A stretch of DNA of 64,000 bases from Allacma fusca (Eukaryota > Arthropoda > Collembola > Symphypleona > Sminthuridae). Below are positions 12,895 through 61,885 of the stretch, piece after piece. Below the pieces are notes generated by a model that was not told the origin of the DNA, did not search any database, and saw nothing but the letters and a program-made list of their open reading frames with translations. The DNA lies in contig OX359248.1 in the NCBI GenBank assembly GCA_947179485.1, positions 44,712,847 to 44,776,846 on the forward strand, read 5' to 3'. A program made the position numbers and the translations under genes. Position 1 is the stretch's first letter. Each line of letters begins with the position of its first letter.

Positions 12895-13758
12895 TTTATT
12901 TTAACTCGACATACCCACATTTCTGTAAGTCTTTCAAATGGTACCTCTCCACAATGGCAAATTTCTGTTTTCAATGGTTCCCCCATTTAAGTGGTAACTT
13001 TGGTTTAATGGTACCACGGAATGATGTTAAGCATAATTACCTTCTGTTTTTTTCCAAATTGGCACCAGTCAACATTAATTTACCTTTTGAAAAAGGTACC
13101 CTTAATGTATGTACCTTCGCGCCAGTAGCTCTTTAAAATAGTACCCCCGTATCAGAGCTTCTATTGGGGACAAAATTATTGTCCCGTCCCCGTCCCGTCC
13201 CGTCCCGATATTTTTTAAAAACGTTTGTCCCCAGTCCCGTCCCGTCAATCGGGACACGGGGACAAAAACCATGTCCCCGTCCCGTCCCCAAAAATTTTTA
13301 AAAACCTTGCCCCCGGTCCCGTCCCGAAAGTCGGGACATGGGGACAAAAATCTTGTCCCCGTCCCGTCCCCAAAATTTTTAAAAAACGTTGTCCCCGTCT
13401 CGTCCCCAAAATTTAAAAAAAATATTGTCCCCGGTCCTGAAAATCGTGGCATGTGAACAAAATTCCTGTACCGTCCCGATAATTACTGAAAACAGTTGTC
13501 GACATTCTCATACCGAAAATCCGAACATGAGGAAAATTTCGTACAAACAATATTTATACCAAACACATAAAAACACATTTATAGAATCGTGGCTTCAAGA
13601 TTCTTCCTGAATTTTTTGAGCAACAAGCCTCATTTTCTACAACCTAAAATTGAATGTCTTACATTCGGTGAAATAGTGTTCACAGAATAGTTTACTCATG
13701 AGCATTAAAGCTGAAACGCTATCCTTGTTCTGCTATGCTTGCGTCACGTTATATACAC

Positions 13759-14632
13759 TAGTGTTGGCAAGTGCGATACTGCGATACGATATTATCGCAA
13801 ATATCGCCAAAAATATGTGCGATATTAGTGGCGATACTTATCGCCAATCATGCCGAGAATATCGGGTATCGACAACGGAAATTATTTTAAACTGCGAGTA
13901 CTTTCTGTCATATTTCTTTCGCGCGAGTCAAGTAAAAGGGTGCATAAGCAATCATGTCGTCGCTGAAGAGGCAAAATGGAGTATGTGCGCATGCTTTTGT
14001 ACAGCACTTAGACCATTTTGCCTCTTCATCGACGATATCCTCTACCTTTTGTTTTTACAACAATACAATTCGAGACCTTGTACGAGAAAAAACTTTTGAA
14101 CGGTTCAATTAAAATTTTTTGAACAAGCGTAGAATGTCGCATATAAACCCTAGATGTGCAACTTGAGTTTAAATTTTAAAATTTCACAATAATTTTACAA
14201 ATAAACATTCACAATTTTGAAAAATTCTGAATTTTTTAAAAATTAGAAAATTTAAGACTCATATATTAGATGCCCTACAACCACATTTTTGAAAAACTTC
14301 AGAAAAGTAGAAAGTATTTTTAAAATTTCAGTAACATCACATGACAGCCACAATGGTTGTCTTAGATGTAATATAGGTATAAAATTCAATATTTTGCATA
14401 CTAGATTCGCTCTCCATGTAATCGCCCAGTGATTACAACATTCAGATTTTTCATATATAATGACAAAGCCAATAGCTAGATCTGTTGATGTTAACTCTTT
14501 ATACTTCATGTGCTAAATCACTTTAGCAAAAAGTATCGGCGATACCCGATATTATCGCAAATATCGCAAAATTGCATTCTACCGATACCGATATTCCCGA
14601 TACTGACAAACTGGCGATACTTGCCAACCCTA
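13759..14632. mobile_element. Non-autonomous hAT element 2 (GCGATA type), nested in element 1
   Basis: Left end TAGTGTTGGCAAGT, right end (reverse complement) TAGGGTTGGCAAGT; perfect 8-bp target duplication ATATACAC (13751-13758, 14633-14640). Both ends carry arrays of GCGATA/TATCGC (13783-13865 and 14535-14620). It is 874 bp with no transposase. It contains a 24-bp inverted repeat in the middle (see separate entry). It must have inserted after element 1. Confidence 0.93.
13956..14036. repeat. 24-bp inverted repeat with 33-base loop inside hAT 2
   Basis: Arms 13956-13979 and 14013-14036 match at 22 of 24 positions (core TGAAGAGGCAAAATGG). The geometry would fold as a hairpin of pre-miRNA or mini-MITE size. 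A related string, GTCGTCGGTGATGAGGCAA, occurs at 19516-19534. Confidence 0.85.
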
Positions 14633-15472
14633 ATATACACGACCAAAAAGCATGTCGCGAATATAATGGGAACAATTGTTTTTGTCCCCGTCCCGAATAT
14701 AGTGGGGACGATTTGTTTTGTCCCCGTCCCGTCCCTGATATAATGGGGACAATTTTTTTTGTCCCCGTCCCGTCCCGAATATAATTGGGACAATTTTTTT
14801 GTCCCCGTCCCGTCCCGATTACGACATGGGGACAATTATTTTGTCCCCGGGGACGTCCCGTCCCGGTCCGTCCAGTGTCCCGACGTCCCGTCCCCGTCCC
14901 CGGCAGAAGCTCTGCCCCGTATGGCGGTACATGGAATTTATTTAAATTAACCATTTCGAAAAATACCATTCACAATCCTACGCCTCCATAACAGCACCGC
15001 GTTATAATAATGGGAACATTTTAAGAAATCTACAAAACTGTATAGAATCTGGAAATATCCATAAATTGAGCAGTGAACACTATCATTATAAAAATACTAT
15101 ACTATAAATACTATGCCACTATTATCATCATGTATGTATGTATGTACACATATCAGATTTCTGTATAATTATATAAAAAATAAAAATACATGGGTTGACA
15201 TAGTGTAGATATGTGACGTGCTTAGTGTGGCCACAAGGGTCTGGGCAGACTCAAGGTATAAGAAAAGAAAGTAAAGTGAGGATTTGGAGTAAGCATGAGC
15301 CTCAGGTTATTTGATTGTGTTGAGAGAGTCTCATCGCCCTCAGCTTTCTCCTTCCTCCTGGCCTTTGCCCAATGAAACCAAGATAATGGATGTATCTACG
15401 TCTGGTCTTGCGAGAGCTGAGATGAGGTCGGAAACCTGAACGTGAGGTTGGAAATAAGATTTCCCTATTTTC

Positions 15473-15518
15473 ACCACACACTCACACACACACACACACA
15501 CACACATACATACACACG
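15473..15518. repeat. (AC)n microsatellite
   Basis: Imperfect AC repeat with a few CATA steps; the Cys-Val ORF on the minus strand is its translation. Confidence 0.9.
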
Positions 15519-17239
15519 GGATCAACAGTCATGAAGATTACCTTGGTCCGGATCATGTTCCAAGGATTTACAGTTTAAACTCGCCCTAGCAATCACTCCT
15601 AATCCAATATTCTATTATGATCACTTTCTTGTATACCTACAGTATATATACAAAGCACAGTCCACTTACAATATAGAATCAATACTAAACCCAAAATCTG
15701 ACTCTTACACTCTCTTGCCACATTTCTCTTGTAAGCATTAAAATTAGTATTACACTAAATGGGAAACTCTCCAAATATCCTCTCCCTATAGATATGCATA
15801 ATATAATTACATAGATTGCACTATAAATGCTTTTGCCCGTGAAATTTCTGCAAGGAGCTCCATTATAGTAACAGGCCACTGTACATGTAATTATATAAGA
15901 GTAATAAGGAGGAAATTAATGAGAGAATTTTCCTCCCTCAGAATGGCTGTTCCTTTGGATTTTTTCAAATGTTTTATGCGCCACTCTTACGGGCAGAGCC
16001 AAGTGTATGTAATAGATCCTGGAGCAATAACATGGGAAATATTCTGGGAACTCTATACATGGATACATGTATAAATATAGATACATTGGAATAATTATAC
16101 ATACAGGGTTGTCAAAAAAAAAATAGATCGGTGGGATGATCTGCTCAAGGGATGTGTTGATCTTGTAATGGGAGCTGTAGATATATTGGAACTTGTCTTT
16201 TAATTTGGAATTCTCCCTTCCTCATCTGCTCAGGGCTGACACATGATGCGAAAAGTTTCCTACGCCCAATATAATGACGGCTTTGATTAAAAGACACTGT
16301 CATGTTTGCCACACTCCGAGTCCGAGGTCTAGGAAACGGAATTTTAGGTGAAAATGTTTCCTTTAATATCCTCAGGACACCTACATATGTAATTATGTAT
16401 ATGCTACGAAAATCTACGAAACCTACAATCCTATTTGGATAAATTCATTGATCTCTTCCACAGCGCCGACTCCGCCTCCCGCAGCATCCCGAAAAAAAAC
16501 CATCTTCTGGAATCCTCTCCCAGTCTCCATACACTGCCCATTATCATGTCAGTCCATATGAGAGGAATATGTACAGTGTACGCTCCCTGTGGCACACTCT
16601 CCTTCAAAACATTCTCTTCATAAAAAAAAATATTGACCCATCATCCGCATTGATTTCAAAGAAATTCCAAGTCCCTACATCTTTTCCTGCAAGAGTCCCT
16701 AACTAGAGTTGCTTCCATAGTCCCAGTGCACTGGGTGGTGAGCTCATTTGGGAATTTCACATTGGAGTCGGATCTCTGTAAGGAAATAAATGATGGACAC
16801 TATGACATTCGGATTTTTGATTGTTGGGGGGGGGGTGCTGTGATAGGGACCCTGCACTGTGTATTATGCCATACATTGGATGATAGTTGGGATTTCGGAT
16901 GCTGGAGCATCAACTCTTTCTTACCATATCTTGCTTTTAGGGATTGAGGGAAAGTCTATTATCTGGAGATCGATTGTAGAAAAAAATGCAGACACCGTGG
17001 GCTCCTAAGCTCCTCGCACTTATCAAGACATTATGGCTCAGTAGCCTCCGCTCCCCGAGTCTTCCCAAAAAATATTCGACTCACACGTCCATATGTGTAC
17101 ACAAGAATACATTTTCCCCGTCTCAGAGTCGTAATCACTCAACGCCAAAATCCTATAAGTTCCGCTCACTCCATCTCCTCCTCCCAATTCTTTTTTTATT
17201 ATTCCGCTCAAAATGGAAATAGTATACAAACCGTTCTTC

Positions 17240-17264
17240 AAAAAAAAAAAAAAAAAAAAAAAAA
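17240..17264. repeat. Poly(A) run of 25
   Basis: Uninterrupted A-run. No element with a poly(A) tail or target duplication is evident to its left. Confidence 0.9.
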
Positions 17265-18572
17265 CCCCGCAACTTAATATCTACTTCTTATACGAATCCT
17301 ATTCCGCCAACTTTAACACTTTTCAACAAATCCCACAGAGGCGGACGTATAGAGAGATACATTCGAGTCCATTCTGCATTATCTATTTTAATGCATTATG
17401 ACAGTTGTCATTCTCAGGATTCAGTTCCAGTAGTCCCTTTATAACACCATAGTTCAAGGAAATGGTTACCTTCTCTCCGTACAGTGCACTCTTGTTATAA
17501 AGGGCCCTCCTAAGAATTTCCTATAATAGTGTCAGAATAATAATTATTACCTCCTTTAAATTATCAGCAAATATTACAATAATATTAGGATTACATTAGG
17601 ATTTATCAACCCCTCAAAATAAGTATACAGTAGACCCACTGTATTACGGGGAAATATCCATGTGTTTGCAGTCAAACCTAGTTGGGATGGTAGCTGTGAA
17701 TCTTTTAGAGAATCTCTCTTAGCTCGTGACTATAGTTCCTTTCGAGCGGATGTTGTCCAATGGAATTGTCACAGGTGCTTTTTATAGGACAGCTCTGTAC
17801 GGGGTTCTCCACTTGGGGCGGGCTTTTGGATCCAGGCGTAATAATTATACAAAGGGGCCCACTGTATTTCAATAACGAGTCCCTTCGGAGAGGAACTGTA
17901 CTTTCCTCCATTATATTTAAGTGCGTTTTGGAAATTGAGCCCGCCCCGTCTGTGACTGAAAAAGTTTGGAGTCTTGAGGAAACTTTGGGTCTTCAAAATA
18001 CATATGTACATACGTATGTATAGATATAGTACCGAGGAGAATTCCCAGTCTCACCAGCCATTAGGAGTTTACAGGGATTTCTCCATGTATTAGGACCACC
18101 CCGTCAGAGGAGAAAAAGTTCGAGGGGAAAACTCCCAACCAGAGTCCATTCCATTGGAAATAATTGAGATGTGACAGGGATGTGGGACGGTGTCCAAATA
18201 TGGTTTTGGGTTCAGGTAGAAAATGTTGTACAAACGGCTCCGGGGATATTTTACTAGAGCTATACAGTATGTATACTGTACATGTTTGATTATACCTCAG
18301 GACTTTTGCTATTGGAGGGAGAAGAATTTCTATATATTTTCCGTGTACGAATATTATATGCTTGTAGCCATTGAGCTTTGAAATTTAAACAGGTTATGTG
18401 TACAGTTGGTATGAGTTGGGCTCGTGCGAGACTCTTTTTATAGAGATCGTTCTTGCAGCAAGAGATTGTAAAAGCATTGTTTCTCTCGTCCGTTATAGGG
18501 AGAGTATAGTACATATGGGTATGTACACCCTACAGTAGCTTATGAATTTTTTTTTTGAATGACAATAGCATA

Positions 18573-18832
18573 ATGGGGATGATGGATGGTTTTGCAGGAC
18601 TCCTGGGCTCTTCAGCAGGATCAAAAATTCATAATTTTGGACTGACTCGAAGTCCCATGGAGCGGAAGGATGTTTGTGGGGAGGACGGGGATGAGATGGA
18701 ACAAGTCCGAGGAGATGATCAAGGACTGTCGAGACTGGGTTTAAATGATGTGGTGGAGCCCATCATGGACGCCAGTTTCCAGGATGACTTCGACGACATC
18801 CATTCCGAGTACCAGTGGTTCACCGAGAGTGG
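18573..18832 (+). CDS. RUSC-like gene, coding exon 1
   Basis: The frame opens at ATG 18573 (context ATAATGG). An in-frame TGA at 18543 excludes longer N-terminal extension in genomic frame, and two very short upstream ORFs (ATGs near 18543 and 18559) precede it. A T-run followed by AATAG at 18564-18568 could also be a 3' splice site, so an untranslated exon may lie upstream. The exon encodes an acidic segment ending in SEYQWFTESG and stops in phase 2 at the donor GTAAGG (18833). Confidence 0.75.
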
Positions 18833-21800
18833 GTAAGGACACATTTTTAGCCACGCACTTCCTTCACATCACTCATGTGGTGGTCAGGATTCTCCCTGTG
18901 TCAGAGTGCCCCGGTTGTCCCAAAACTCCTTACCCCACCCCGACTCATCACCATCCACTCCGACTCACGTAAGGGAATCTCTGATATTTATTTCCTGGCC
19001 GTTTGTAAAAGGGAACAATTATTAGATACACAAAATAAAATCAATTATAATTTATTAGTACTCCGTACCTCAAATAGTATCTACTTTTCCTACGACAGGG
19101 GATAATGTATTACTTGGGGTTAATACCCCAAATTCCTCCCACCGTATCCTCTCCTTAAGCTTATTTAATCCCATCTGTGATCAAAAATCTCCTCAGCTCA
19201 GGAGCGCTTGGATGTACGGTAAGTATGTACATCCCAGTATTTCCCGAGTGTATTTTTCCTAGGGATCTTTATGGTACAGGACGCTCAAATTTCGGTATTA
19301 AGTTCCTTATTACTTTACAAATTCCTTATAAATCCAAGACGCAAAACACAAAAGTATTCCTTTTTAAATGTCACCTACATATGTACATACATACAATAAG
19401 CTCTTGTTGTTAGAGTCGGTATGCTCTATCGACGTTTTTTAATACAGAATATCTTTCCAATTAATTTCCTTTGAAATATTAAGAATATATTTTTGGAGTT
19501 ATATGAGGCTCATATGTCGTCGGTGATGAGGCAATCTGTTTTTGATTAAATAAGAAATTTTCTAAATCAATTTTTGATTCAATACCAAAATGCTGTAATC
19601 TTGTTATTGATTCAATTTTAAAGGGTATAAATCTATATTGGATTATTTTTCACATTTGGTTTCAGTGGAATCCATTTTTATTACAAATAGTTTTTATAAT
19701 AAAAATCGATTCAGCAAAAGCAAAACGTTTTAAAGTTATTCGAAATTGAATGCAAAATGTTCTAAATCAATTCTGGACTGAAAACAAAATGTTCGAAATT
19801 CATTTGAAATTGAATGCAAAATGTTCTAAAAATATTTGAAATTGAATGGAAAATGTTCTAAAAATATTTGAAATTGAATGCAAAATGTTCTAAATCTATT
19901 TGAATTTGAATGCAAAATGTTCGAAATCAATTCTGGATTGAAAGCAAAATGTTCGAAATCCATTTTAAGTTGAATGCAAAATGTTCGAAATCCATTTTAA
20001 GTTGAATGCAAAATGTTCGAAATCCATTTTAAGTTGAATGCAAAATGTTCTAAAACTATTTAAAATTGAATGCAAAATGTTCTAAATTTATTTGAATTTG
20101 AAAGCAAAATGTTCTAAATTTATTTGAATTTGAAAGCAAAATGTTCTAAATTTATTTGAATTTGAAAGCAAAATGTTCTAAATTTATTTGAATTTGAAAG
20201 CAAAATGTTCTAAATTTATTTGAATTTGAAAGCAAAATGTTCTAAATTTATTTGAATTTGAAAGCAAAATGTTCTAAATTTATTTGAATTTGAAAGCAAA
20301 ATGTTCTAAATTTATTTGAATTTGAAAGCAAAATGTTTTAAATCAATTCTGGTTTGAAAGCAAAACGTTCTAAATCAATTCTGGATTGAAAGCAAAATAT
20401 TCTAAATCAATTCTGGGTTGAAAGCAAAATGTTTGAAATCCATTTTAAATTGAATGCAAAACGTTCTAAATTTATTTCAATTGGAATGCAAATTGTTCTA
20501 AATCAATTCTGGGTTGAAAGCTAAATGTTCGAAATCTATTTTCGATTAATTGCCAAACGGTTTGCTTATAGTTTCAATAAAACCAAAATGGACTTCTCTT
20601 CACAATAAAAAAACGTGTCAGATGTCTATTTGCATTTCGGGAAATACACCTGGAACATTTTGCCTTTAATTGCTAATATATTTAGAACATTTTACTTTTA
20701 ATTTGAAATGCATCCAGAACAGTTGGCTTTCCCACTGCTAAAGGTCTCATGGAAATTGAACAGCGTGATGGAAAGTTTGGAAATGATTTTTGCCTTCTAA
20801 AGACATTGCTATTCCAAGGCTCTGTGAATTACATATGTATGTAGCTCCAGCTCACGGCACACTACAAACCGTAAGGTGACTTTGTGCTGAGGTTGCTGAG
20901 CGTGTTTAGAAAACAGTGTGGAGTTGAGTGTGAGAGAGCTGTAATGTCGGAAAGGTGACTCCTACGACAAGGAAGGTTTAATGCAGTAAGTCCCGGGAAG
21001 GAAGGTTCGCCAACAAATCCACACGAAGAGAGATGTGAGTTGAGATAATAAAAAATCCTACTCCAACTTCCCCTGACGTACTTTGTGACTCCACATAGTT
21101 TCACCTCTAATTATACCATTTATTTTAGTCCTGGATTACTGGGCCTTTCACACACGACAAAACTATATCTACAGTTAGTAATTGCATAGCCCCGCACATG
21201 TGAACGAAACAATTTACAAGTCTCAAGTGTTATGCACCAATTTAGTCAATACTTCCAACAAGTGTTATTCCTTCTCCCAACATTTCATCTCACTCCAGAC
21301 TCACCACTAATAACAACCCACTTCTTCTAATAGTCAATCTACGCATTTCACTCAATTAGGCCCTCCATGCAGTGCACTCTCTCCATGAGGGACGCCCCTT
21401 GATCAACCAGGACTGTCCAAGGAAAAACATTCCCTCACATCCGCCCTTTCATCTAAATTTTTGTCTCCCTCAAAAATCATTTTAGGACAAGCGCCCTAAA
21501 AGTTCGAGGAAATTTAAGGGTCGTTGTAGAATTAGCCGTGACTGTAGTACAGTAGTACGAAAGGTCCGTACATTTTGCAATTCCTGAAATCAGAGGGAAT
21601 TCCTCAAGTGAGACTGGGTGCGACAGTAATTTTTGATGTAATTTCCGAAATTGTGAGAAAATTTATTTCCTCCTAATAATTAAGTCCGGGAGGATTCCTT
21701 CCGCACGTGTTTCCTCGCTAATTATTTTTTTTGCCAAAATTCATTAAAATAAATGGAGTCGGGAACATAGCGTGGAAACATCTTGGTCACACTGTAATAA

Positions 21801-24800
21801 TAAATAATGACATTGCTCCGCTTTACCGTTACGCCTGTCATTTTGAGGTAGCTTATTTTCTTCTACACAATTATTTTTCCACTTGTTTCATTTCATTATT
21901 TTCCCCCTGTTAAGAAGCAAAATTAACTCCGACTGCCCAAGTCCCCAGATTTAAAGACACTTGTGTACAAAAATGTTAGCATTTAAAATTTTAATTAATT
22001 TGTTAGCTACTAGAACTTATTTTAACATTTAACGGGTTAAGAAACAAATTTGGGCTGTTCACAGATGTCTGTTTTGGTTCTTAACTCTTGTTTCTTTAGT
22101 GCAAGGTTGGATGATGAGTGATTCAATTGTGCTCCTTAGCAGACGAGGTATTATTTTGGTTGGGAGTATAATGGTTACCTGAGAGTTAAAAGGTTCCGCT
22201 CGAAAGAGGGGATTGAATTTTTAGTGGGAGAAAAATGTTTTGCTCAGTGGAAAATAGAATTAGGTTTCGGAAAAAGGGGACGGCTTTTGTAGAGACTAAA
22301 GAGCTTTTCTACATTTGAATGGGTTGAAAAGGAAAGGACTTTATGGAGCATTGTTTTGATCCTGGACCTGAAAGAAGCACATTAAAAATCCAGAGCTTTG
22401 GGGTTGACATCCTAAACGAGAACTAGTTTCAAATTTAATGTTGGACGTGGAAGAAGAGGAGGGTCTTTGGCAGTGAAGCGTTTGCGGAACAAAGTTTCCG
22501 CATTTATTAGTCAACAGAGTCACTTTCTCCACTTTCTACGCCGTCAAAGCACAACTTCCAATTCATTTATAAGGCGCACTGGGTCACTTCAAACATTCCT
22601 ACTCCTCCCCCCCTTTCTTTATTTTCGGGCAAAATATTTATTCCGGATATTTTTTCTACAATTTTTCCAAGCGAGGTTCCATTTTTCAAATTTTCCTTGC
22701 AAATTCAAAATTTATCTCAAATTTTAAGAGTTCTTCATTTTTCGATTTACCCTCAAATTTTCCATGAAAATTCTGTATTTCCATCAAATTTTTAAATTCT
22801 ATCTCAAATTTTTAACTTTTACCTCATTTTTTTAAATTCTATCTCAGATTTTAAAATTTACTCTTTAATTTTTAAATTGACCTTCAAATTTTTTAATTCA
22901 CCCAGAAATTTTTTAATTCACCCAGAAATTTTTTAATTCACCCAGAAATTTTTTAATTCACCCAGAAATTTTTTAATTCACCCAGAAATTTTTTAATTCA
23001 CCCAGAAATTTTTTAATTCACCCAGAAATTTTTAAATTCTCATTGAATTTTTCAATTCCCCTACAAATTTTACAAACTTCCCTCAAATTTGAAAAATGAA
23101 AAGAATTCATTTTGAATAACGTTTGGTGAGAATTTTCGAGGTTTTAAAGAAAAGGAGAAGGAAATGATGGGGAGTGGGTTGCGTATTTGAAGGGACCCCC
23201 CCGGAAGATGTGGTGTTATCTGTGAGAGAAAAATTCTGAGGGAGGACAATACTCACATTTATTTGAGGAGTGAGTGACTCTCGTTGGAAAGAGTAAGATC
23301 CGGAGGAGTGGATGAGGAGACAAGTGCATAAGGAATAGACGGGAGGGGAAGGAACGGAGGAAAAACCCGGTGCTCTTTTTTAGCCAGTCGGGCTCCGTCG
23401 CCCGTGAAATGGAAGAATTGTGCTGAGCATGGGAAGAGGACTTGGTAGTTGATATAGGGTCCTTCGTCTTTGGCTCATGCATTTTATTAGCCAAGCGTGA
23501 GGTGAAGCTTTGATGGTTGGGAGTTCCTCCTCACTCACTCCGCATCACAAAAGTTCCACTCATTTGAATACAATTCAGACCTTTTGTCACGTTGTCAGGT
23601 GCGGAGCATCCATCAAAGAGCTCCCTTACCTCAGTACAGTAAGCACCCATTACTACATCTAACCATCCGCTACGGAGCAAAGGTCAAAGTCGGCACACAT
23701 CTTCCCCCAAAGTTCTTCTACCATGAAAGTGCACCATTCCTCTCACCGGCAAATTTCCAAAAGTCAATAACCCTTTCATTCAAACATTAACTACAGATAC
23801 GTATTCCCATGAATTCTCGAACCGGGTGTACCTCTCAGTTCTTCCAGCAAAAGTGAAAACAGTGCTAGCGTATAGCTTTTAACTCCTAAATTCACTGTCC
23901 ATACAAACCAAACCAAACATACGGACAGCTGTTAAGAAGCTAAAACGATCCTTCCCAATCGTCTCTGAAATTACGAATAAAATCTTAAGAAAGCTATTAA
24001 GAACAAAAAGGACACACAGGCAAGCGATTGTCAATAAAAATCTTTTTTTTAAACATTCCTTTGAAGAAGGAAAACCGAATTTTGGGAATGTTACCGAAAT
24101 TCGTGTATTTATTTGGGAAGCTGTTAAGAGACCAAATCGAGGATTTGGTGAAAGAAAAAGGTTGAATTGTCAAAGATCCCAACATGGACGTTCCCTGGAC
24201 TAAAACAGGTGGTTAGTTAAGAGTCAAAGTTTGACAAATGTTTCTAGAAAATCTTCCAAGCTCCCATTTCCCTTTTAACCCACGATCCTATGAGTGAGTT
24301 CATTCGTTGAGATTAATATTTCCCGTTGGTCTGCTCATTGTCAGAGGTGACATTCTCCCTGCTTTACCCTCCTCATTTATTTTTATATTGAAGAGCACCA
24401 GCTCGTTTTGAACTCTCAATAGAATAATTTAAGATGGAATAAAGATGCTTTTAAAAAGTTGGAGGAGCGGCTCTTACAATAAAATAGTAAACTAATGTTA
24501 GAGCAAGGCTCAATGGAGTTCCCAGAGGCTTATAATGCGGTCGGAGAGACTAAGGTTGTTCGGGAGTAAGACATGATGTGAGTGAGGGCCAATGGGAGAT
24601 TGGTATTTAGGAACTGGCTCCCGAGAATCTTTTGTCGAAACCACAACAAGGGGAAGGGAAGACACAAGTGAAATAATTACGAGCCTATATGCACGCCCAC
24701 AAGCCCCACGTAAAGGACAAGTGGGATTAAGGATAAAGGTTAACAGGAGCTATACAATTTCCCATCACGCAATGGTAGAAAGTCTTTCCAGAGACCTCAC

Positions 24801-25787
24801 ATCACACAGGCCCATACTCTCCATTCTCCCCATTACAATCCCTTCAACGAGTACGTATATATGTACATATGCACATTATGTACATACCACGAAAGCCGAG
24901 CACTGCTCCAAAAGCAACAAATTCACAGGAGAGTGACTCATGCTCTCGTGAATAATGGGATTTTACGCACAGTGTTCCCAAAACTGAGTAAACTCCAAGC
25001 GCTAAGAAGCAATTGGGAGCTTTTGTCAATTTTGAATTCATAAAATCAATATTAAACTACCAGAATATGAGACTTGTGTCAGAGTATATAAGTACAACTA
25101 AAGATGCTCAGAGACAAAGTAGCTGCATAGATTTTGCTGCCAGGCCAAAAATTATTTATGAATTTGTTAATTAAGCGGTAGGGAAGGATTTCGGGGATAA
25201 TTAAAAGCTACTAACAAAATTTACGGGAAGATTAAGAGGGAAAAGGATTCCTGGCGAGGACATTCAGAGTAATTACTCTAACCCTCAGATTTTTAAATGT
25301 TTCAAGAGTAAATGTAAGTGTGAAGATAAAATTAGGGCACTTGAAATTGTGAGAAGTACAAAAGTGAAAGGTAAAATTTTTAAAGGGAGGAAAGTATGAA
25401 AGATAGGATGATTAAAAAAATATAATAATAAAGAATAATCGGGCTGGGATCCTTAGCGGACGGTGAGTGAATGAGTGTGTGAGTGAGTAAGTGAGCTGAG
25501 GCCTTGTACAGCATGTATTTGCGTGGGTGATATAGAGTATGTTTTGAGGTATATGTTGGTTTTGTGGACATAGATTCGGAGCGGATGGCGCTAACCTCTC
25601 GATGGGGAATTTCCCCACACCGCTCTGTATCGGTGTGGGAACGGATTTGGAGTTTGATGCTACGATGGCCCACATTGACATGGAAGACTTCCACTCGCAA
25701 GACATTCTATTAAGGTTCCCTCCTCTCTGTGCTTCAGATCTCCAGGTTCGATTCTAATTAAGTCTCATTTACACGCCTTCCGTTCCC

Positions 25788-25874
<87 letters not shown>

Positions 25875-43419: not shown

Positions 43420-43439
43420 TAAAGGAATCATTATTCGAT

Positions 43440-45420: not shown

Positions 45421-45429
45421 TGCACACAA

Positions 45430-46982: not shown

Positions 46983-46990
46983 GTCTTGGG

Positions 46991-47992
46991 TAGGGAATGT
47001 CGATTGAAAATGCCCTCGTATATATGCCCGCCAAGCTGAATATGCCCAACATGCCCGCCAACGTGCCATATTTTTGGGCACATTGGCACATTGGGAAAAT
47101 GCCCTAAATTGGGCATTTTCGACAGGGCATATTCGGCATTTTGGGCATTTTCAGTAGGGAATATTAATTATTTAGACAAAACTCAGCAATATGGTCAAGT
47201 CAAAAATACCACTATTCACTATTAAAATAAAATATTCTAAAAAGGCCTACATGTCAATTTCCTCAAATATATTTTATTTCAAAATATACTTCATGTGTAT
47301 CATACAATCGCCTAATATTGAATTGACGAATCAAATACTGTTGCATTTTGTATAACGTTAATCAGAATGCTCTAGTTCTTCTCACGTGTACGGTTCTTCA
47401 ATGATAAATGCGTCCTCAAAAAAAATCCTCCCCATCAGAACTTTTATTTGTGTAACTTTCAACCTCTGCAGCCGTTGCTTAGCCTTCGGCTGAAATAATA
47501 TCGGCATAAATAAAACTTCTCATATCAACTTTTTCTAACAAGTGCTTCGAGCTTGGCAGAGTTTATTGCATTCCAAAATGTGAGTTATGTTTGACTACTA
47601 AATTAAAAATAATTCGGGAACAATTTCAATGTTGAACTGTTTAACCACCCGTCAATTAGCAACAATGGAATGGTTAGAAGTTTCAAAACTTTTACAATTG
47701 TCTACTGACCAGATTTATTTACCTGTCTGTTAAAACGGCGAGTAATCGTTTTTAGTTATAACAATGTGTGCTGGGCAGTTTAACGTCTGGAAAAGGTAAT
47801 CGGCCGGAAAATTTGAGTTGAATATGCCCAAAATGCCAAATATGCCCAGGAATGAATATGCCCAAAATGCCCGTGCCGAATATGCCCAAAATCTACGTAT
47901 TTGCCCAAAGTTGAAAATGCCCAAAATGCCAGGGCATTTTGGGCAGGCATGATGCCCAATATGCCATGGCATTTTCAAATCGACAATCCCTA
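46991..47992. mobile_element. Non-autonomous hAT element 3 (ATGCCC type)
   Basis: Ends TAGGGAATGTCGATTGAAAA and, in reverse complement, TAGGGATTGTCGATTTGAAA; both continue into ATGCC. Perfect 8-bp target duplication GTCTTGGG (46983-46990, 47993-48000). Subterminal arrays of ATGCCC/GGGCAT occupy 47014-47158 and 47822-47972. It is 1002 bp with no transposase; the ORF of Pro/Gly/Ile type on the minus strand is only the array translated. Confidence 0.95.
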
Positions 47993-48000
47993 GTCTTGGG

Positions 48001-49221
48001 TCAATTGATACTATTAATTTCAAGGGGACTAGAAACCATTTTATCCATGGTTGCCCCGATTGTGCTTTAAATGGATTGCATAGTGATTATTGGGTGTCAC
48101 AAAACATTTGTCCATTTTTGCAGCCGATTTAAGCAGGTGTGTTGCAATATTTTATATTTAGATATATGTGCGTGTACGTATTACAAAACCGTCGAGCCCA
48201 TCTTTCAAATTAACAATATTGACCTATGTCAACAAATAAGCTCACGATGATCAAATGAACACAACAAAGACTTTTTCCCAGAAATTGTATTCCAATTTTT
48301 TACTTTAAAAAACGAAGCTAATCTATAGCAAATTTTATAGGTTTCTTTCGATATCAATCATATCATTACGCAATCTAGATAAGAAATTATAACGGAGTCC
48401 TCTATTTCAGACTAGGCTTGGCCCGCCTCACCCCGTTAAACGTAGAATTGGACTGATTTCAAATTTTGAGTACACAATATAATATGCTAAACCTGCTTTT
48501 TTATGAAAATTTTATTTCAAAACTGAAAAATTGAAACCCATTTTCTCAAGAAAAATCCCGAGTTTGCTTCATTTATATTTTATGACAATTTTGTCTCTTT
48601 TGAAATATCCGCAAGAAGTGTCTCTTGAAAGTTGAATTCGAAAATTGTCAACCTTGTTTATGAAATATAAATATAAACTGACAATTTTGCCAGGTCCTAT
48701 GTTTTTATGAAAATGCTGGTCGAAAATGCGGAAAACATCGGTCATTTTCAAAACAAGGCATCTATATAATGAGCGTTTTTGCGATTTCCAATTTCTACCT
48801 GGGCAGGCGTATAAAGTGGGACCTTTTCGTTCTTAGAACGCCGGCTGAGCCAAGAAATATTTTGACGCTTTTATTAGCTGTAATGTTTATATGAACACAC
48901 AAAATACAATCAACACTTGGATGCATGACATTAGTGATCCTTTATTTTTTGCCATTATCCATAAATTGCTAATCAAATGGAATTTATCAACGCTGACTGA
49001 ATTATTGTCGACGATCTTTTCCAAATGTCAATCATGCAATAAAATGCAAAAAAGCATACCTTTTCGGACAAATGAAGAACTGTTTGAATTTTTTCATAGT
49101 TATTCTTACATCTAATACAGTAAAAGAGTTAGCATTTTATAATCACAAGCACGTTAATAGCATCACTCAAACGCATTCCCTCATATACATATGCACATAG
49201 ATACGGTTAAAAAGCAAGAAT
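48001..49221. other. Non-coding or unassigned
   Basis: A 74-codon + strand ORF at 48891-49115 has ordinary-looking composition but no recognised family and no splice support. Otherwise AT-rich, nothing seen. Confidence 0.35.
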
Positions 49222-49407
49222 TTATTTCCTGGAAAGCTCCCCGCAAACATCCATTACACCTTTGAACACCTTTTGTAAATATAATGTATCCGTAATATTC
49301 CGAACTTTAATTGTGACATCGTCCGTCTGCTTGGGCTCTTCAGTAAGTATATTAGATATCCTTTGACCCTCCTTATCTGTGAGATTTTCCCCAAAGTCCT
49401 TCCTTAT
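49222..49407 (-). CDS. Unassigned terminal-exon-like open segment, 61 residues
   Basis: On the minus strand, just after a TAG at 49410-49408, a frame stays open for 61 codons to TAA (49224-49222). Its translation begins IRKDFGENLTDKEGQ and contains DDVTIKVRNITDTLYLQKVF and GVMDVCGELSRK; the charged, balanced composition looks like real protein. It has no early Met, so it would be a last exon in phase 0. It could be an alternative end for the calcyphosin-like gene (exon 3 also ends in phase 0) or the end of another gene whose upstream exons I could not find. I do not recognise the family. Confidence 0.4.
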   Translation of the reverse strand: MRKDFGENLTDKEGQRISNILTEEPKQTDDVTIKVRNITDTLYLQKVFKGVMDVCGELSRK

Positions 49408-49626
49408 CTAAATATTACGGTTGGCTCAAATATAGGAATATGATGTAAGCTTTGGTAGCTGGATCGATTTTATGACGATACAGAGCAGATGTACCGTCAA
49501 ACATGAACGTACATAGATTGGTTGGAAAGAGAAACATGAACATATATGTAAATATTTTCTGTATATGTGCATAGATTATAGACGAAGATTTGCATGGAAC
49601 TAAACACGATGTCTGTCCACTTGCTC

Positions 49627-53318
<3,692 letters not shown>

Positions 53319-55531
53319 CTAACGGGAGCAAAAACGAACTGTGTCAAAATTATGAAGAACCTCTGCCTTGTATCCTCCGTGTCTCTTGTCTATTAATTTC
53401 CAATAGTGGTGCTCCCATAAAGCAAATGGTAAATACATAGTTCACATGATAACAGAATCCAATATCATTTCGTTCTATAACTATGTATATACTCTCTGTC
53501 ACTACATTGGCAATGCCATTTGTGTGTGTGGTGTGGATATACTGGGACTTCACTTGTTCAATGTATGCTCTGACCGATCAGGACCCCGGACTGTAATTAT
53601 CCAAATATGTACACTTTCCGGCACATTATAATGTTGGCAGATATCTACAATTCAGTCTCCATGTCCCACGTCCTTCTTTTAACAGTAACAGGGAAAAGCA
53701 CAACTTTCTCCCGACGTCGGGCACATATTACGTCTGTCTTGAGTGTACACATTTAAACAATTATTGTGCATATATGGAGAGGTTGCCAACTTCATATCAT
53801 GTCCGACCTCCAGCAGTCCCATACATAGGTACGGACACTATCTACTATATCTACGAACCTACGGAAATCCCTTTCATGACAATAAACCCTTTGTTCCATT
53901 TTTATTGCATTGACTTTTCTTTCATGAATTTTAGCTCAAATTTGCTCATTCCTGTAGGATGCTACCTCTCCCCTGTTTTAATAATATTAAGTTGTACTCC
54001 CATCAATTTTTCCCGTTATTCAAATCCTTTTGATACAATCCCTTTAGGACCGTGTGTAATGACTTGTAATGTAAGCATTGTAAATGGGAATGCCAAGACG
54101 CTCCCAAAACATAAATTCTGGGAGCAACGCCACACTCACAGAAATGCAGTCATATTTTTTGTGGATAAATAGAGCCTTGCACAAGTGTCACAATGCAATG
54201 GGAGTTTCAAGGCTCTACACGGGAAAAAAATGCACAAAGAAGCAACTGCGGAATTGGTGGAGAATATACAGTAAGGAGAATAATAAATTTCATAAAAATC
54301 AATGTAAACATAAAAATACATATTGGAATGAATATTAAAGTCTTTCCTATACATATGTTGTGAGTTTCCAGGTATTCATTCAAAGGTAAGTAAATCTGTA
54401 GAATTTAAGAGGTTCGGTCTTCTCATGCACGTTTATTTTATTTTTAATTGCCTCCATTATGCTCAACCTTATAGACATCCTGCTCACCCGTAAACATTAG
54501 ATAAAGTCAAGTTGATGAGGTAATTAGGGACCTCATTTATAGTTGTTAATGGGGGATGCTTGCACGGCCGAATAATTAAGTAATTGAGTTATAATGAATA
54601 ATGAAAATTACTCAAGCGAAGTGACATTTAAATGTCAGGGAGACCTTCCAACGAAGGATTTTTGCTCTGAGCATGAAAGACACTATTTTGTATTAATTTC
54701 AGTAATTTCCCGGCGTAAATGATAATTACTCAAAGTGTAGAGTGGACCATGAAATTATTGAAAGTTGTACCCTTACATTGTATCATACTACAAAATGAAT
54801 TGAAATGCTCATATTTTATTACGTGCCTTTTCGAGAAGTCCTCTTTGGACGACGATGTAGCAATTCCTTCGGGAGTTCCTGATCCTCACGACAACTTACA
54901 CGGATGAGAGGCAGTAGTGTAGAGTGGAGTTAAATGGACACATTTACTTCAAGGGACATTACCTAAATTGAGACAAACATTATGAACAATAAATGAGTTT
55001 AAAGTTCCTCGTCACGACCAGTCTTGTCTTGTCGGACCAGTAGGACCTTGGGCCAAGAGAAACTCTCAGCCCATGCAAGACAAGTGTCTACATAAATGTC
55101 TACCACAAGCATCTATTTACCCACTGTCTGAGACATTTTTAAAAACCCTTCCTGTCAATTGGACTTATCCATTGATTTTTTTACTAAGAACAAGGAAGAA
55201 TCAATATTTACGATAAATTTTAAGTGCGAAGGCTTTTTGTATTTCACCCACTCTAACCCCCAGCAAACCCCCCATAATATTCTGTTTGCAGACTGACACA
55301 TTACAAAAATTAATTACTATACTCCTGAAAGTGTTAAATTAGATCAACGAGGAAAAAGTAATGGTGAGTGGTATTGTATCACTTGGAGAGCCAAGGTATA
55401 ATTAAGTCTGACTCCTGACATGTACACGAACTTACATATAATTATCTATACATAATTAAAGTAATTACAGTGTTATTAAAAATGTCATTTCAAATTCAAC
55501 AACTAATCCTAAAGGGGGTTGCTAATCCCAG
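53319..55531. other. Upstream of the calcyphosin-like gene; no certain gene
   Basis: The promoter of the minus-strand gene should lie just right of 53318, but no core element stands out. + strand open patches at about 54835-54908 (LDDDVAIPSGVPDPHDNLHG) and 55010-55100 (KVPRHDQSCLVGPVGPWAKR) have protein-like wording and might be exons of the same unknown + strand gene as 55532-55770. This is weak. Confidence 0.25.
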
Positions 55532-55770
55532 AGAAAGTTCAAATGATACAAATAAAAGATGACAGGCGGAGAGTGATGAAGTCAAAAGAAGCAATAAACT
55601 CTTATGAAAGGGGACCGGAGATTTTTGTCACTCACAAAAATTATTCCTTACAAGCAGTCTGGGATGCATTGTGCAATGAATGTGAACGACTGGCGAGACA
55701 GGGGAAATGCGTTCGTTATAAGGAGAAGCCTATATACGGATCCCGTATAAGGAGATTTGACTCTACATGT
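55532..55770 (+). CDS. Candidate internal exon of an unrecognised gene
   Basis: A frame follows an acceptor-like GCTAATCCCAG (55521-55531) and reads KVQMIQIKDDRRRVM, ERGPEIFVTHKNYSLQAVWD, ALCNECERLARQGKC. It is charged and cysteine-containing, unlike the low-complexity ORFs around it. Possible donors are GTATAA near 55745 and GTAAAT near 55771. With the first, a downstream acceptor at 56026 would keep the frame open for about a dozen residues to a stop. Family unknown; could be chance. Confidence 0.28.
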
Positions 55771-58700
55771 AAATTATTATATGTCTTTTGAAGACATTGC
55801 TAATCAAGTGCAATGAGCCCCGAACTTGTTACTACGATCTGACAAGTTCAATGACTACATGAGCCCTTGTGACATTTGATTTTTGACTAATAACTTGCTA
55901 ACACGAAAATAAATAATAGTGTATAGGTTAAAAGCAAGAAAGAGACAATACTGTAATGCTTTATTGATACCTTGTCCTTGTCATGCTGGAAAGGAGTCTA
56001 TGTACGTCCACTTCTTCCCACACCAGGAGCACAACTGAAAGAGAGGAACCTACCCATTCAAAGTTGATGCAATTGTGCTTTTTCTTTGAGTAAGTTGGGT
56101 TGCTTAGTGAAACCGGACATTGACATGTACTGGACTTATACAGAGAGTAGGGAAACTCGCTCGAGCGTCATCGACCTACTCCTGGCAAGAGAAAACGTTT
56201 GTAGCACACCGCAAGTAACTTTCCCAGGTCTTACAATGGGGATTGTGCAGCTAATCGTGCGCTATCGTGACAGATCGTTACTAATGCATAATCCTTGACA
56301 TGTAAAGGGAAAGTACGGAGCTGGACAAAATGTTGCATTAGTTTCTCTCCTCAGAATGCTTGTAGATTTTATTGCTTGTGTAGTATGTACTAGGGTGGCC
56401 ATATACTTGGCGGCTCACAATCAGACTAGCCTAATCTATTGCTCAGCTCAAAGTTCCCCATATTAGGTATACATTTATTCCTTTTATTACCAAAGATGTA
56501 GAACTTGTTGTTATGCCATCCAAACATATATATTTGAATATACTTAATTACTCAAATTTTAAATTATGCATAATTTACAATAACCTTAAGCAATATTCTC
56601 AAGCTGGAATTTAAGGTCTTCAGGTACAGTAGTAGGAGTCAGTTTTTTTTTCAGAAAATTTCTCTGAAAGAAAGCTCATGCGTGATTGTATTCTATACAT
56701 ACCTGGTTGTGGACCAGTGTTAACTCAGACTCCTTCTAGTGATTATTTTTAAAAGTATTAAGATGTTTTAAATTGTTCAAACTTATTTTATTTTCTCTTT
56801 TTCTTTAACCTTTCTAAACTTCTGCTAGCTAGATCTGTTTGTTGTTTCTTTGCCTTGTACGTAAATATTTTTACTTTGGGGCCAGGATTAGTACAGTGTT
56901 ATTTACAGAAATGAGAAATAAGCTGTAAATTAACAAGCATGGGGTTATTTAGTTCAAGGGGAAACTTTGAGTCGTGGCTCGTGTATCTACATATGTACAT
57001 ACATACATGTATGTACATATGTATAGATATAATACTGCTGAGCAATGACCAATTTACTACGGTTCTAAAAAAAAAACCATCAGAAATCCTTCGGGGTTGC
57101 AAATTGCATATCTGGTCCAGGAGCTGGTAGTTTAGATGAACTACGATAAAATATAGCATAACAACCAAAATTTTCACCTGTAGTTTTGGGGAAAATTCTG
57201 AAATTCCACTATCAAAAGAAGTGATAGATTTTAGGTTACTTAGATTTAAATATTGACAAACACGTCATACAAGAATTCCACCAATGTGTCGTATATTCAG
57301 GGTGCCAAGAGAGGAATGGTTCCCCCCTTGACCAAGTAAGGAGGGACGGTAGAATATATTTTCTTTTATATTTTCTTCAAGCAAATCTTTTTCCAGATAT
57401 AAAAATTCATTGTCATTCTAGTAGTCCAAAAATTGGGTCATAAGGGTGGTGAAAAGTCAGGATTGTTTTCTGGATAAGATTTTTAATAATTTATTATAGT
57501 TGACTCAAAATTTCAAAACAAACCCAAATATTTTTTCACCCACTATTGTAGTAAAATTTACTTTTTGGGGAGTAGTCAAACAGGTTCAGTAGAATTATAG
57601 AGCATCAGAGAATGCTAAAGTTAAAAGCAATACATATTTACGACTAAGGTACAGAACGTCTTAAGTCGAAAAATTTACATGTTTGAAAAATCGTTACAAC
57701 AGATTTAATGACCTTATTCTTAGGGGCGCCCCAAATATATTGAATCACGGTTAATCAAGTTTCTTGAATTTTCGAGTAAAAATTGAAATTCGTTTATCCT
57801 GACAGATCTGACATTTTTGCATTACAAGAGGAATCCTGAACAAATAATCGTTGAATTATAAACAAGAATTTTAAAAAAAATAAAGTAACCCGTCAAAACA
57901 TGTGCAGCAAAAATATACCTCTTTAAATATTTCTCCTAACCATGTAATAAGTAATAACTAAAGTTAAAACGTTTTTCGTACTTTTTGTTCATACATTTTT
58001 TTTCTGTAACGGTTATTATCCTTAATACATTGATGAGGGAAAGCGCTGACCAGATTGAATAGAATCTATATAACAAGCGCTAATTTAAAAAGCTACAACC
58101 ATACAGGATTTCTTCAAACAGAACGTCCAACCGAATGTAATCCTGCTCTCTACGGGGTACTAAACCTTTTCCTTTTTTTTCCTGACTTTGCTGTACAGTA
58201 TTACCAGTGGTTTTATTTTACCTGCAACATTGACATTGTCTTCCAAAATTATAGTCATCTATAATTCCGGAAATAGATTTTGCGATCAGAATCTTCCATT
58301 TATGAGCTGGTGAAGCCATTGGGCACAAAATGCAATGCATAAGTATATATAATTAATTATATGTTCCACATACTAAAATTTATTGCAAACCTTTAAAGTG
58401 CCCCATGTAGAGGAGCTCTCTCAAGTCTCCATAATTGTTTAATAGCATAACTTGTACTTGAAATTTTAATTGGTCTATTAAATACTGTATATATTTGTAT
58501 TATTGTATATCATTTCGTCGAAAATTTTCATAGCAGTTAATATTTCATCTATATTAATTAGCATAAAGCATAAAGGTACATCGATCCAAAATAATAAATG
58601 AGATTATTAGTTTATTACAATGTACAAGAATTACAAGTTGCTGGAAGTCTGCTTGTGTTCGCAAGGATCGGAGTCAAATATTTAGCATACACCGATGCCC

Positions 58701-59774
58701 TGTACAGTATATGCTGCGCGACTCACATTCAGAAGCTACCATTTGTTAGACCAAAACGAGAGGCCTGCAGATGACCGTCAATAGAAAACAGTCTTCGATA
58801 GGAGAGTTGTAAATGTCAGTGAGAATATACAATACATAATGTAAAGCTTTGTAATAAGATACATTACTTTCAGTGTGAACTCTCAACGGCATATGTATCT
58901 ATCGTAATAACGTACACCAATCATGTTAGCCTTCCTTAAAACATAAAGAGCAAATTCAACACGTTCCCAAAAATACATTCTAGCATCGTGACAAACATCA
59001 GTTTGTCGTAGAACTTCGAAGCACTCTTCTTGCGTACAGTGATGGGTTCTGTCAGAATTTTTGCAATGCATGCAAACATCATTATCATATGCGTTTTACA
59101 CCTAGTCAGTGCTCCCTGGGTTGCTACAGGACTGTCGAGAGGTGAGGTTGTGCTCATCTGAGCTCCCTTATCTTTTGGCAGATCTGCATAAAAACTTTGA
59201 GACACATAATTCTTTTTTTTTTGTCTCCACCACCCGAGTCTCTCTGCTTGGAGAGTTGTGATCCCTGCTGTCAAGTGTCTACCGGGCGAGCGTCTTGCAC
59301 CATAACGCTACCTTGTGCTGTTAGTGATTTGTCACCACCGAATCAGCACTTGATTCCCGGGTAGTTTGCACCCATAGGCTTTTGTGACATTTTGATTTAG
59401 CAGTGATTACCACGAATCCACGTCATTGCCTTGAGGTATTGACTTGGGGGTGAGTGTCCCAATATCTGGCACATTCCTCAGGTTCTGCATAAAGTGCAGA
59501 GGCTCACCTGCATTTTACTCTTGGTAGAATAGCAGCCGGAGCCCCTGAAATAACTTGAGTAGATTGCATATCTTAGTGAAGCAGTTGCCCAAATAGCAAC
59601 TTAGGGATACGAAATCGGATAAGCAAATTCAGGAAAGTGGACATCCCATGCTCACTCTTCCAATGCTATTCGTAAATTAACATGTTCGACAGGGTAATCT
59701 GCAATGGGCCCACTGATGGCCTGAGCAGTGTCCCATAACTTTGGTTGTGGGACCCCCTAAAATACATACATAGT
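55771..59774. other. Mostly featureless AT-rich sequence
   Basis: Contains a palindromic TACATATG/TGTACATA microsatellite at 56988-57028 and the Cys-containing frame at 58.9-59.1 kb. About 59200-59560 is GC-richer and could be an old repeat, unrecognised. Confidence 0.35.
58883..59110 (-). CDS. Possible coding fragment, Cys-containing, unrecognised
   Basis: A minus-strand frame of about 70 codons reads VCMHCKNSDRTHHCTQEEC then FEVLRQTDVC and YFWERVEFALYVLRKANM, ending at TGA. The overlapping second frame is also open (112 codons), so openness alone is weak evidence. The CxxC...C...C spacing could be a small metal-binding or disulfide module. I cannot name it or find partner exons. Confidence 0.2.
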
Positions 59775-61877
59775 CAGTGCTCGGACTGGGTACGGTTAAT
59801 ACTCGGGTAAACCAGTACGAGTACGGGTACAGAAGTGGTATCCTCGCAAATACACGGGTACTAACCGGGTGCTCTGGATTTTAGACAATAAAGTGTGGGT
59901 ACAGGTACGGGTGCGATCGGGTAGTACCCAATAGATCACTTTGTAAAATATCTGTATCCGTGCGTGCTGTACTCGAGTATTTTTGAAGACTTCAAGGATT
60001 TCTATTCTGAGATTTCCGAAGTTACAAACCCGTGTAAAAAATGATTTCCGGACACAGAATACATATTAGCATTCATCTTGAAAAAGAAACTCATGGAAAC
60101 CCAAGGTCCGGAAAGACCACGACCGAAAATGCAATTCCTTTCGCTTTTTCTTAAAAAATCTGGGTAATTTCGGAAACAGTCAGAATTAGGCTACCGTTCA
60201 CAAGTATATGAACAAATTACCGATGGCAAAGATAGTGCATGTTTTGGTGAGGATTCAGGAGGAGGAGGAAAGTCAAATCCTCCACAAATGTCATTAGAGA
60301 TGGAAATACAGATATTGCATATTAGATATATTGTATTCTGAAATTAAGGGGTCACCCTAAGAGGAATCGGAATACAAATTTCCGGACGCGCTACCAGCGA
60401 TACTTTACGGATATTTAGTTCCATTTTGTGGTAATCTTTTAAGTGGGATCTTTCATTAATAGGACAACAATATTTTAATGCCCGTTGGTCAAGGTGAGAG
60501 ACCAGTTTGTTGCAACAAAAGGGTGTTCAGCCGTTCAGCGCTAATGTGAGCCCTGGTGCTTGTTTCCATAATAATAGTTACTCTAAAAGTAAAAATGACT
60601 GCACACTTTCTTGTTAGGGACGTTTAAAAACCTTGTTGAGACTAACGTCCCTTACATGTATTTTGAGGAGACCTTAGAGGTGTTTGGCCATGGCGATCTG
60701 AAATTTCGTGTACTACCCGGTTCCCAGTAGATTATCCCCGGGTATTGTAAAAGGTCATCGGAGTAACTTATATTCTGAAATCACATAACCTTCATACCTC
60801 ACATAATACTGGATTCCTTCAATTCGATCATTGCAGCACCAAATTTTTGTGTCGAATGGGTTCAATTGCAAAGGCTTCGGAAATTTTGAACGAGGAGTGG
60901 AAAAGGACGGTCTCAAAAAACTATCCTCCGGCCCTTTTTCCTACAAGGGAAACTCCGTTTTCACTTAAAAAACCATGGTTGGCACGATAAAAATGTGAAA
61001 AAATAATAATTTCTTAGCTTACCTCTTCGATATAATAGTTCAAACACGGCCAAAATTATACTAAATACCCCCAGTATTTGACCTAGAAAAATGATGTTCG
61101 ACAAATTAATCGTATGATATTTTCTAAACACAGTGTTCATATATTGTTTTGTAAATAGTTCAGAAGGTTGATACGAAATCAGAAAATCCTACTTTCCTCG
61201 TGCTTTACTGACCTTGCGTCCTGTTTTTACGGTAATCTCCACAATTCTTAACGTTGGGACCTGTAAAGAAGCTGCTTGATAAGTCTGTTAGGTGGTAAAA
61301 GATTTTTGAGAAAATTTTTTAGCTAGGAACAAAACGTTTTAATGTTCTAGAAGTTAAAAAGCAAGTTTTTGGTTATGAAGAGTTTGGTATAAAATACTTT
61401 GTTCTAATTGGTTATCCTTACACCATACAATAATTTATTGTTCAATAACCAATTTGCGAGAACATATTCATCTCTCTAACTTTATCTGGTTAATATTTTG
61501 GCGTAGTAGCATTTGAATTTCTACAGTGTTTATCAAACATGAACAGAAAAATCCTGGGCATTTTTAATGGTGGACAAAAACTGGACGAATTGGGCATTTT
61601 ACACTGAAGGCAAATATCGTGAGGTATTTCAATCGGTCAACCCTGCAGTAATTACCCGAATAATACCCGGGTACAAACAATAGGTACGGGTGCAGGTTTT
61701 GGGTACATTACGGGTACGTGTAAATTTTGAGTACATGTAATACGTTTTAGCTTCAAGTATGGGTCCAGGTATTGATAAAATATACCCAAGTACTCAAGTA
61801 CGAGTGCAGGAACAACATTTATTCGTACCCGATATTTGGGTACGGGTACAAGGTTTCTGAACCCAGTCCGAGCACTG
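59775..61877. mobile_element. Non-autonomous hAT element 4 (GGGTAC type)
   Basis: Ends CAGTGCTCGGACTGGGT, identical over 17 bases in inverted orientation. Flanking octamers TACATAGT (59767-59774) and TACGTAGT (61878-61885) agree at 7 of 8, as expected for an older 8-bp duplication. Arrays of GGGTAC/GTACCC fill about 59790-59930 and 61665-61855. It is 2103 bp, with no ORF over 60 codons inside, so no transposase. Confidence 0.93.
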
Positions 61878-61885
61878 TACGTAGT

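Follow-up and report, generated by a model that had tools for sequence, protein, structure and literature searches.

Family-specific subterminal hexamer arrays in hAT-like elements of the collembolan Allacma fusca

Four array-bearing elements in a 64-kb window

The stretch of 64,000 nucleotides analyzed here (the window; contig OX359248.1, positions 44,712,847 to 44,776,846 of the forward strand) belongs to the 392.74-Mb genome assembly of Allacma fusca and contains four hAT-like elements, E1 to E4, each with arrays of its own hexamer near both ends (Table 1). E2 is nested within E1. Each element is flanked by an 8-bp target-site duplication (TSD), whose two copies are identical in E1, E2 and E3 and differ by one mismatch in E4. 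The terminal inverted repeats (TIRs) are 10 to 17 bp long. That of E1 is CAGAGCTTCT, with 10 bp perfect and 11 of the 14 outermost bases matching; E2 and E3 have the pairs TAGTGTTGGCAAGT/TAGGGTTGGCAAGT and TAGGGAATGTCGATT/TAGGGATTGTCGATT; and E4 has CAGTGCTCGGACTGGGT, with 17 bp perfect. A scan of the window for exact 8-bp TSDs and at least 11 of 14 matching TIR bases returned E1, E2, E3 and one simple-repeat match, and a scan for 10-bp perfect TIRs, in which at most one TSD mismatch was tolerated, found E1 and E4 along with two AT-rich matches.

A short TIR starting with YARNG is the hAT consensus, and all eight ends of E1 to E4 fit this start. With their 8-bp TSDs, YARNG-type TIRs and subterminal short repeats, the elements appear to be hAT-like, an assignment that rests on ends, TSDs and shared design. 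They resemble non-autonomous elements, such as miniature inverted-repeat transposable elements, in being without a transposase and in having many copies with the same ends. None has similarity to seven hAT protein fragments of the same genome (tblastn, E<=0.01), a search that a very diverged remnant could escape.

The most frequent hexamer is concentrated in the two 250-bp ends: CGTCCC occurs 24 times there and once in the interior of E1 (with E2 removed), and the corresponding counts are 11 and 0 for GCGATA in E2, 16 and 0 for ATGCCC in E3, and 11 and 0 for GGGTAC in E4. Not one of 500 dinucleotide shuffles attains the array score of any of the four elements, and a chance origin is rejected on this basis, with a caveat for E1. 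If low-complexity hexamers are kept and raw counts are compared with 300 shuffles, the shuffle maximum for E1 is 26 versus 25 observed, and E2, E3 and E4 have 11, 16 and 11 observed versus maxima of 7, 12 and 7. An earlier sequence-only reading of this DNA had described four transposase-less elements with 8-bp targets and dense motif arrays near both ends, and all of these features are borne out.

A satellite or simple tandem repeat was also considered and rejected. Constant-period, head-to-tail units describe E1 in part, where the arrays are largely tandem with units of 82 bp and 41 bp, but not the set as a whole. The arrays of E2 to E4 are irregularly spaced and occur in both orientations, and Tandem Repeats Finder reports no array in E2 or E4 and three short, marginal ones in E3.

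Table 1. Features of the four hAT-like elements, in window coordinates
Feature	Position	Strand	Evidence
E1 TSD, left copy CCCCGTAT	13145..13152		window scans
E1, CGGGAC/GTCCCC arrays, interrupted by E2	13153..14914		ends, TSD, shuffles, genome end matches
E1 left GTCCC array, partly tandem, 82-bp unit	13163..13477		motif positions, tandem-repeat scan
E2 TSD, left copy ATATACAC	13751..13758		window scans
E2, GCGATA arrays, inserted in E1	13759..14632		ends, TSD, shuffles, genome end matches
E2 left GCGATA/CGATAC array	13772..13871		motif positions
E2 right CGATA array	14533..14620		motif positions
E2 TSD, right copy ATATACAC	14633..14640		window scans
E1 right GTCCC array, partly tandem, 41-bp unit	14681..14902		motif positions, tandem-repeat scan
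E1 TSD, right copy CCCCGTAT	14915..14922		window scans
E3 TSD, left copy GTCTTGGG	46983..46990		window scans
E3, ATGCCC arrays	46991..47992		ends, TSD, shuffles, genome end matches
E3 left ATGCCC array	47011..47150		motif positions
E3 right ATGCCC array	47772..47975		motif positions
E3 TSD, right copy GTCTTGGG	47993..48000		window scans
E4 TSD, left copy TACATAGT	59767..59774		window scans
E4, GGGTAC arrays	59775..61877		ends, TSD, shuffles, genome end matches
E4 left GGGTAC array	59788..59929		motif positions
Dispersed repeat nested in E4	60044..61078 (about)		~40 other genome places at 69-80% identity
E4 right GGGTAC array	61701..61849		motif positions
E4 TSD, right copy TACGTAGT, 1 mismatch	61878..61885		window scans

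Families and motifs across the genome

End patterns were counted genome-wide and compared with reversed-pattern controls, and the places inspected were the first 100 listed for each pattern (all 73 for E2). The E1, E3 and E4 patterns have 1,217, 607 and 1,241 matches versus 1, 3 and 1 in the controls, and that of E2 has 73 (55 of them exact) versus 37; the patterns used for E2 and E3 mostly capture one of the two end forms. Family specificity was assessed in four ends per family, picked by TIR and place alone, with motifs counted beyond the pattern. Totals for each family's own motif are 34 for GTCCC (E1), 32 for CGATA (E2), 27 for TGCCC (E3) and 35 for GGTAC (E4), and every cross-family total in the same 16 copies lies between 0 and 2. 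The motif table is nearly diagonal: the arrays are family-specific, in agreement with the earlier proposal of one motif per family. The own motif is present in 15 of the 16 copies, including all four of E2, E3 and E4 and three of four of E1; one E1 copy (L061) has lost its array.

The design extends well beyond these families. We sampled 29 sequences (300 kb), comprising the window, L002-L009 and twenty 10-kb stretches at round coordinates (L010-L029). End pairs filtered for YARNG number 11 at a TSD length of 8 and none at 9, with one mismatch allowed, and one at 6 and none at 7, with no mismatch allowed; reversed-TSD controls give one at 8 and none at 6, 7 or 9. An unfiltered scan gives 31 rows with exact 8-bp repeats, of which 22, being palindromes, AT-rich pairs or simple-repeat pairs, were set aside with no separate array test, and nine were kept (two in L009, one in L010, one in L025, two in L026 and three in the window). 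The twenty random stretches yield seven accepted elements: those in L013, L015 and L025 and two in L026 come from the YARNG-filtered scan, L010 3846-4533 comes from the unfiltered scan, and the seventh is L026 1306-8012.

Strong arrays are found in five of these seven, and all are different (GATTTA, TCAAGT, CGCCTA, GAACTC and GAATAG). When segment pairs were drawn at random from these sequences, only 0-1.4% reached the scores of 9 of 11 elements, and the 12 top-scoring control segments are mostly tandem repeats. One of them, at L025 5090-5630, resembles E1 in a diverged form; it carries GGGAC arrays and a GCTTCT tip, and its tips and target duplication look degraded. L009, fetched as an E4 match, adds families with GGTTTAAACC and CGGTTC. 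Altogether, this one genome yielded 14 families that differ in their strong motif, and the array-bearing design is general in it.

Arrays are also found in transposase-encoding elements, in families other than those of E1 to E4; the sequence-only reading had proposed to compare motifs in autonomous copies with the same ends. A search of the genome for PF05699 gave 860 candidates, of which 150 were scored, all above the cut-off; none of 14 control genomes is positive. We read nine transposase-bearing loci, of which eight come from this list and one, L026, from the random sample; the set is biased to long open frames. Six have findable ends, and all six carry arrays at both ends that none of 500 shuffles attains. 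The 8-bp TSD is exact in L026, L030, L031, L034 and L035 and has one mismatch in L033. The motifs, as left plus right counts, are GAATAG in L026 (8+8), TTGTTG in L030 (8+7), ATAACG in L031 (8+5), ACGTTA (5+7) and ATAACG (2+7) in L033, and CGGATA in L034 (14+14) and L035 (15+12). L039, of which one side was fetched, has six CGTTAC within 200 bp. A BED finger is detected by Pfam in L030 and is recognizable by eye in the pieces inspected of L026, L031, L033, L034 and L035. In the PDB, the L030 protein has matches to transposase chains, those of Hermes included (E values of 4e-11 to 8e-11).

Two pairs of related transposases agree with motifs that follow descent, an agreement in two cases rather than a statistical test. 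L031 and L033 are 51% identical over 503 amino acids, have AACGTTAT and AACGG words and a similar left-end layout in common, and possess near-identical BED helices (GSHAGNLKSHLRISH and GNHAGNLKTHLRNWH). L034 and L035 are 92% identical, and both carry CGGATA. The remaining pairs among L030, L031, L033, L034 and L035 are 19-23% identical and differ in motif, and L026 and L039, at 39% identity over 96 amino acids, differ in their words (GAATAG and CGTTAC).

Several other features of the sampled stretches deserve mention. L032 contains a 566-amino-acid frame with a hAT domain (1498-3742) and a BED match upstream, and no TIRs or arrays were found around it; it is possibly a hAT-derived host gene. 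On C8, three hAT domains at 28181777, 28191590 and 28201403 have a constant spacing of 9,813 bp, which suggests a tandem array of a transposase-bearing unit. L024 (~4484-9806) has two sets of inverted repeats that overlap each other, are centered near 6549 and 8588 and have listed arms that are identical; they surround or overlap an 835-amino-acid open frame (5777-8281, minus strand). L025 has GCCGACA-rich arrays (3755-4130 and 8997-9398) in the outer arms of a multi-kilobase inverted repeat, whose listed arms are identical, with about 4588-8539 within. A CTCAAA-rich tandem satellite (29-9992) fills practically all 10 kb of L017.

Short copies and a change of motif between sister families

The CGGATA family, whose end pattern has 462 matches versus none in the control, links short copies to a transposase-bearing form. 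End pairs were taken as convergent ends less than 6 kb apart, from the first 100 listed places of the 462. Among the 36 pairs, 29 span 0.68-0.98 kb, four span 1.39-2.84 kb, and three span 3.27-3.51 kb, one of which is L034. An 891-bp copy, L076, matches L034 at 82% over its terminal 272 and 260 bp, and its middle is unrelated. L076 thus consists of both ends of the transposase-bearing form with unrelated sequence between them, a structure that fits the need of Hermes for ~220 bp per end (PMC10368747; this paper and the two others cited below are drawn on in extract).

Motif numbers in these copies bear on the suggestion, made in the sequence-only reading, that non-autonomous copies amplified the motif while competing for limiting transposase. 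In favor of competition, most of the listed CGGATA end pairs are short, and E1, whose array is denser than those of E2 to E4, is tandemly expanded. L076, the one short CGGATA copy read, however, has 13 and 15 motifs at its ends and none in its middle, and this total of 28 is in line with the 28 and 27 of L034 and L035, so that extra amplification by competition is not supported. E4 likewise has fewer GGGTAC motifs (11 in its 250-bp ends) than two longer E4 copies (23 and 30 in their 300-bp ends). We therefore consider competition improbable as the source of the arrays.

Two families with CAGGGT-type tips in common suggest how a motif may change. The elements of L009 (1972-3011) and L013 can be aligned through their arrays, and the array word is GGTTTAAACC in one and GATTTAAATC in the other (here, the GG and GA families). 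The aligned ends contain 26 motif sites: 19 differ by the same change, G to A or C to T, no change is seen at 3, and the remaining 4 differ in other ways. The 178 columns outside the sites include 148 that are identical and 6 with a G-to-A or C-to-T change. Because the sites were defined by the motifs, a statistical test of these counts is descriptive only. The end patterns have 442 (GGTTTAAACC) and 251 (GATTTAAATC) genome matches versus none in either control, and the first 100 listed GGTTTAAACC ends comprise 98 of the form GG..CC and 2 of the form GG..TC.

Ten more copies of each family were picked by their first 22 bp, and half-sites were counted beyond. The ratio of GGTTT to GATTT is 79 to 8 in the GG copies and 0 to 99 in the GA copies, where copies of one family are non-independent events. 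All eight exceptions are one hybrid site, TGATTTAAACC, found in 8 of the 10 GG copies. The spacers between sites differ as well, and array units were gained or lost among GG and GA copies (L044, L046, L056 and L058). Selection by a changed transposase or conversion of an array followed by re-expansion could each produce this pattern. Whole arrays may switch motif together, as if ~20 sites per element had followed one change in a BED finger, a reading that we put forward tentatively. No transposase-bearing partner of either family was found among the listed places and domains. One candidate for GATTTAAATC, on C5 (BED at 37050425, hAT domain at 37052141, GA-type end at 37056665), was dropped because the 1.7 kb upstream of its BED domain is without CAGGGT and has a different, ACCCGA-rich stretch instead.

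Interpretation and known systems

E1 to E4 are likely to be non-autonomous members of four hAT families, whose arrays are predicted binding sites for the BED finger of each family's own transposase. Since the same design is found genome-wide, and also in transposase-encoding elements, each element's own transposase probably recognizes the sites that its word marks. E1 to E4 would retain both array-bearing ends of a larger, transposase-encoding parent, with the middle lost or replaced, and thus would have arisen as the short CGGATA copy did. Each array would be a cluster of sites bound with low affinity by the BED zinc finger of a transposase that acts as a multimer and uses many sites across the outer 100-250 bp, and a BED finger that differs between families would give each its own hexamer. 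The motif presumably would then be needed for mobility.

Perhaps the motifs instead bind a host protein, such as a DNA-bending or silencing factor. The Hermes authors propose a cellular factor that acts on the ends beyond 50 bp (extract of PMC10368747). Such a factor would favor one or a few common motifs, in contrast to the 14 families that differ and the two pairs of related transposases that have motifs in common, and we give this explanation little credence. Even less probable are arrays that are by-products of slippage or tandem duplication near transposon ends, with no binding role: the tandem units of E1, the units that come and go among GG and GA copies, and the satellites of this genome that attain similar hexamer scores are all compatible with it, but not the irregular, two-orientation arrays of E2 to E4, their location at both ends and hardly inside, or a motif common to transposases that are 51% identical.

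Several observations weigh against recognition by each family's own transposase. The autonomous relatives that the sequence-only reading had envisaged for E1 to E4 did not appear: no transposase-bearing copy with their ends was found, by eye, among the listed end pairs and 150 of the 860 hAT domains, and two long E4 copies, L036 (4.6 kb) and L037 (3.9 kb), have no open reading frame of more than 110 amino acids and no hAT match. The earlier expectation that motifs track transposase relatedness, with which L031/L033 and L034/L035 agree, is in part at odds with other loci. Neither ends nor arrays were found in the 4.6 kb fetched for L038 or in the stretch fetched for L032; L038 is 57% identical to L030 yet array-less, an argument against universality if its ends have not decayed. 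The L039 word CGTTAC overlaps that of L031 at 25-27% protein identity over the matched parts, and unrelated transposases may reach similar words. Arrays are weak in L026 5371-5626 (CAGGGA, 3+3) and in L015 (GAACCC, 3+2; 1 of 500 shuffles attains its score), and random segment pairs equal both in about 7% of cases. L010 3846-4533, the transposase-bearing L026 1306-8012 and the L031 element are without YARNG ends. The unfiltered scan has 42, 61, 17, 31, 3 and 9 exact-repeat matches at lengths 5 to 10, so length 8 (31 versus 61 at length 6) is prominent only with the YARNG filter, a slight objection. Finally, Hermes keeps ~70% of its activity when putative inner sites of its left end are mutated, so that transposase binding may not extend to inner repeats (PMC10368747, in extract).

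If each hAT family shows its presumed recognition word ~10-30 times, BED specificities could be predicted from sequence and tested cheaply. The genome also allows one to ask how specificity shifts when dozens of sites per element must shift too, a question for which the GG and GA families, as sisters, provide a pair ready for testing. If switching is general, the genome would record many natural steps of coevolution between BED fingers and their sites, from which a BED recognition code might be read. To our knowledge, little is known of how a hAT transposase distinguishes the ends of its own element from those of related elements that share the nucleus.

Subterminal repeats are a known feature of hAT elements, and what is of interest here is how many motifs are private to a family and that whole arrays differ by one switch. 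The transposases of maize Ac/Ds, Arabidopsis Tag1 and fish Tol2 need or recognize short subterminal repeats; their motifs are other than ours, and here many families with different motifs occur in one genome. In the open-access titles and abstract openings searched, no description was found of a genome with several hAT families that differ in subterminal motif. The repeats of Ac/Ds, Tag1 and Tol2 are named in the extracts of PMC10368747 and PMC4763223. In Kluyveromyces lactis, the hexamer TGAATT occurs six times between the TIRs of the substrate of Kat1, a domesticated hAT (PMC4763223, in extract); that is a single domesticated locus, whereas the families described here are multi-copy.

Hermes, from the house fly, is similar in its 8-bp TSD, short TIR, BED and hAT dimerization domains, and repeated end motif, and its BED domain binds short subterminal repeats, with ~220 bp of both ends needed in cells. 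Its motif, in contrast, is the tetranucleotide AAG(T/C), with 17 and 14 per end, few of them bound (PMC10368747, in extract), whereas hexamers occur here ~10-30 times per element. The CGGATA family, which is built like E1 to E4, has transposase-encoding members with the same ends (L034 and L035). A related system is that of CGGBP and hAT-19: the BED plus Hermes DNA-binding domains differ from one hAT to another in the 8-mers that they prefer, and the microarray motifs of four hAT-encoded proteins match the subterminal regions of their own elements (PMC8097297, in extract). Proteins were measured in that study, whereas the motifs of Allacma fusca are read from element ends.

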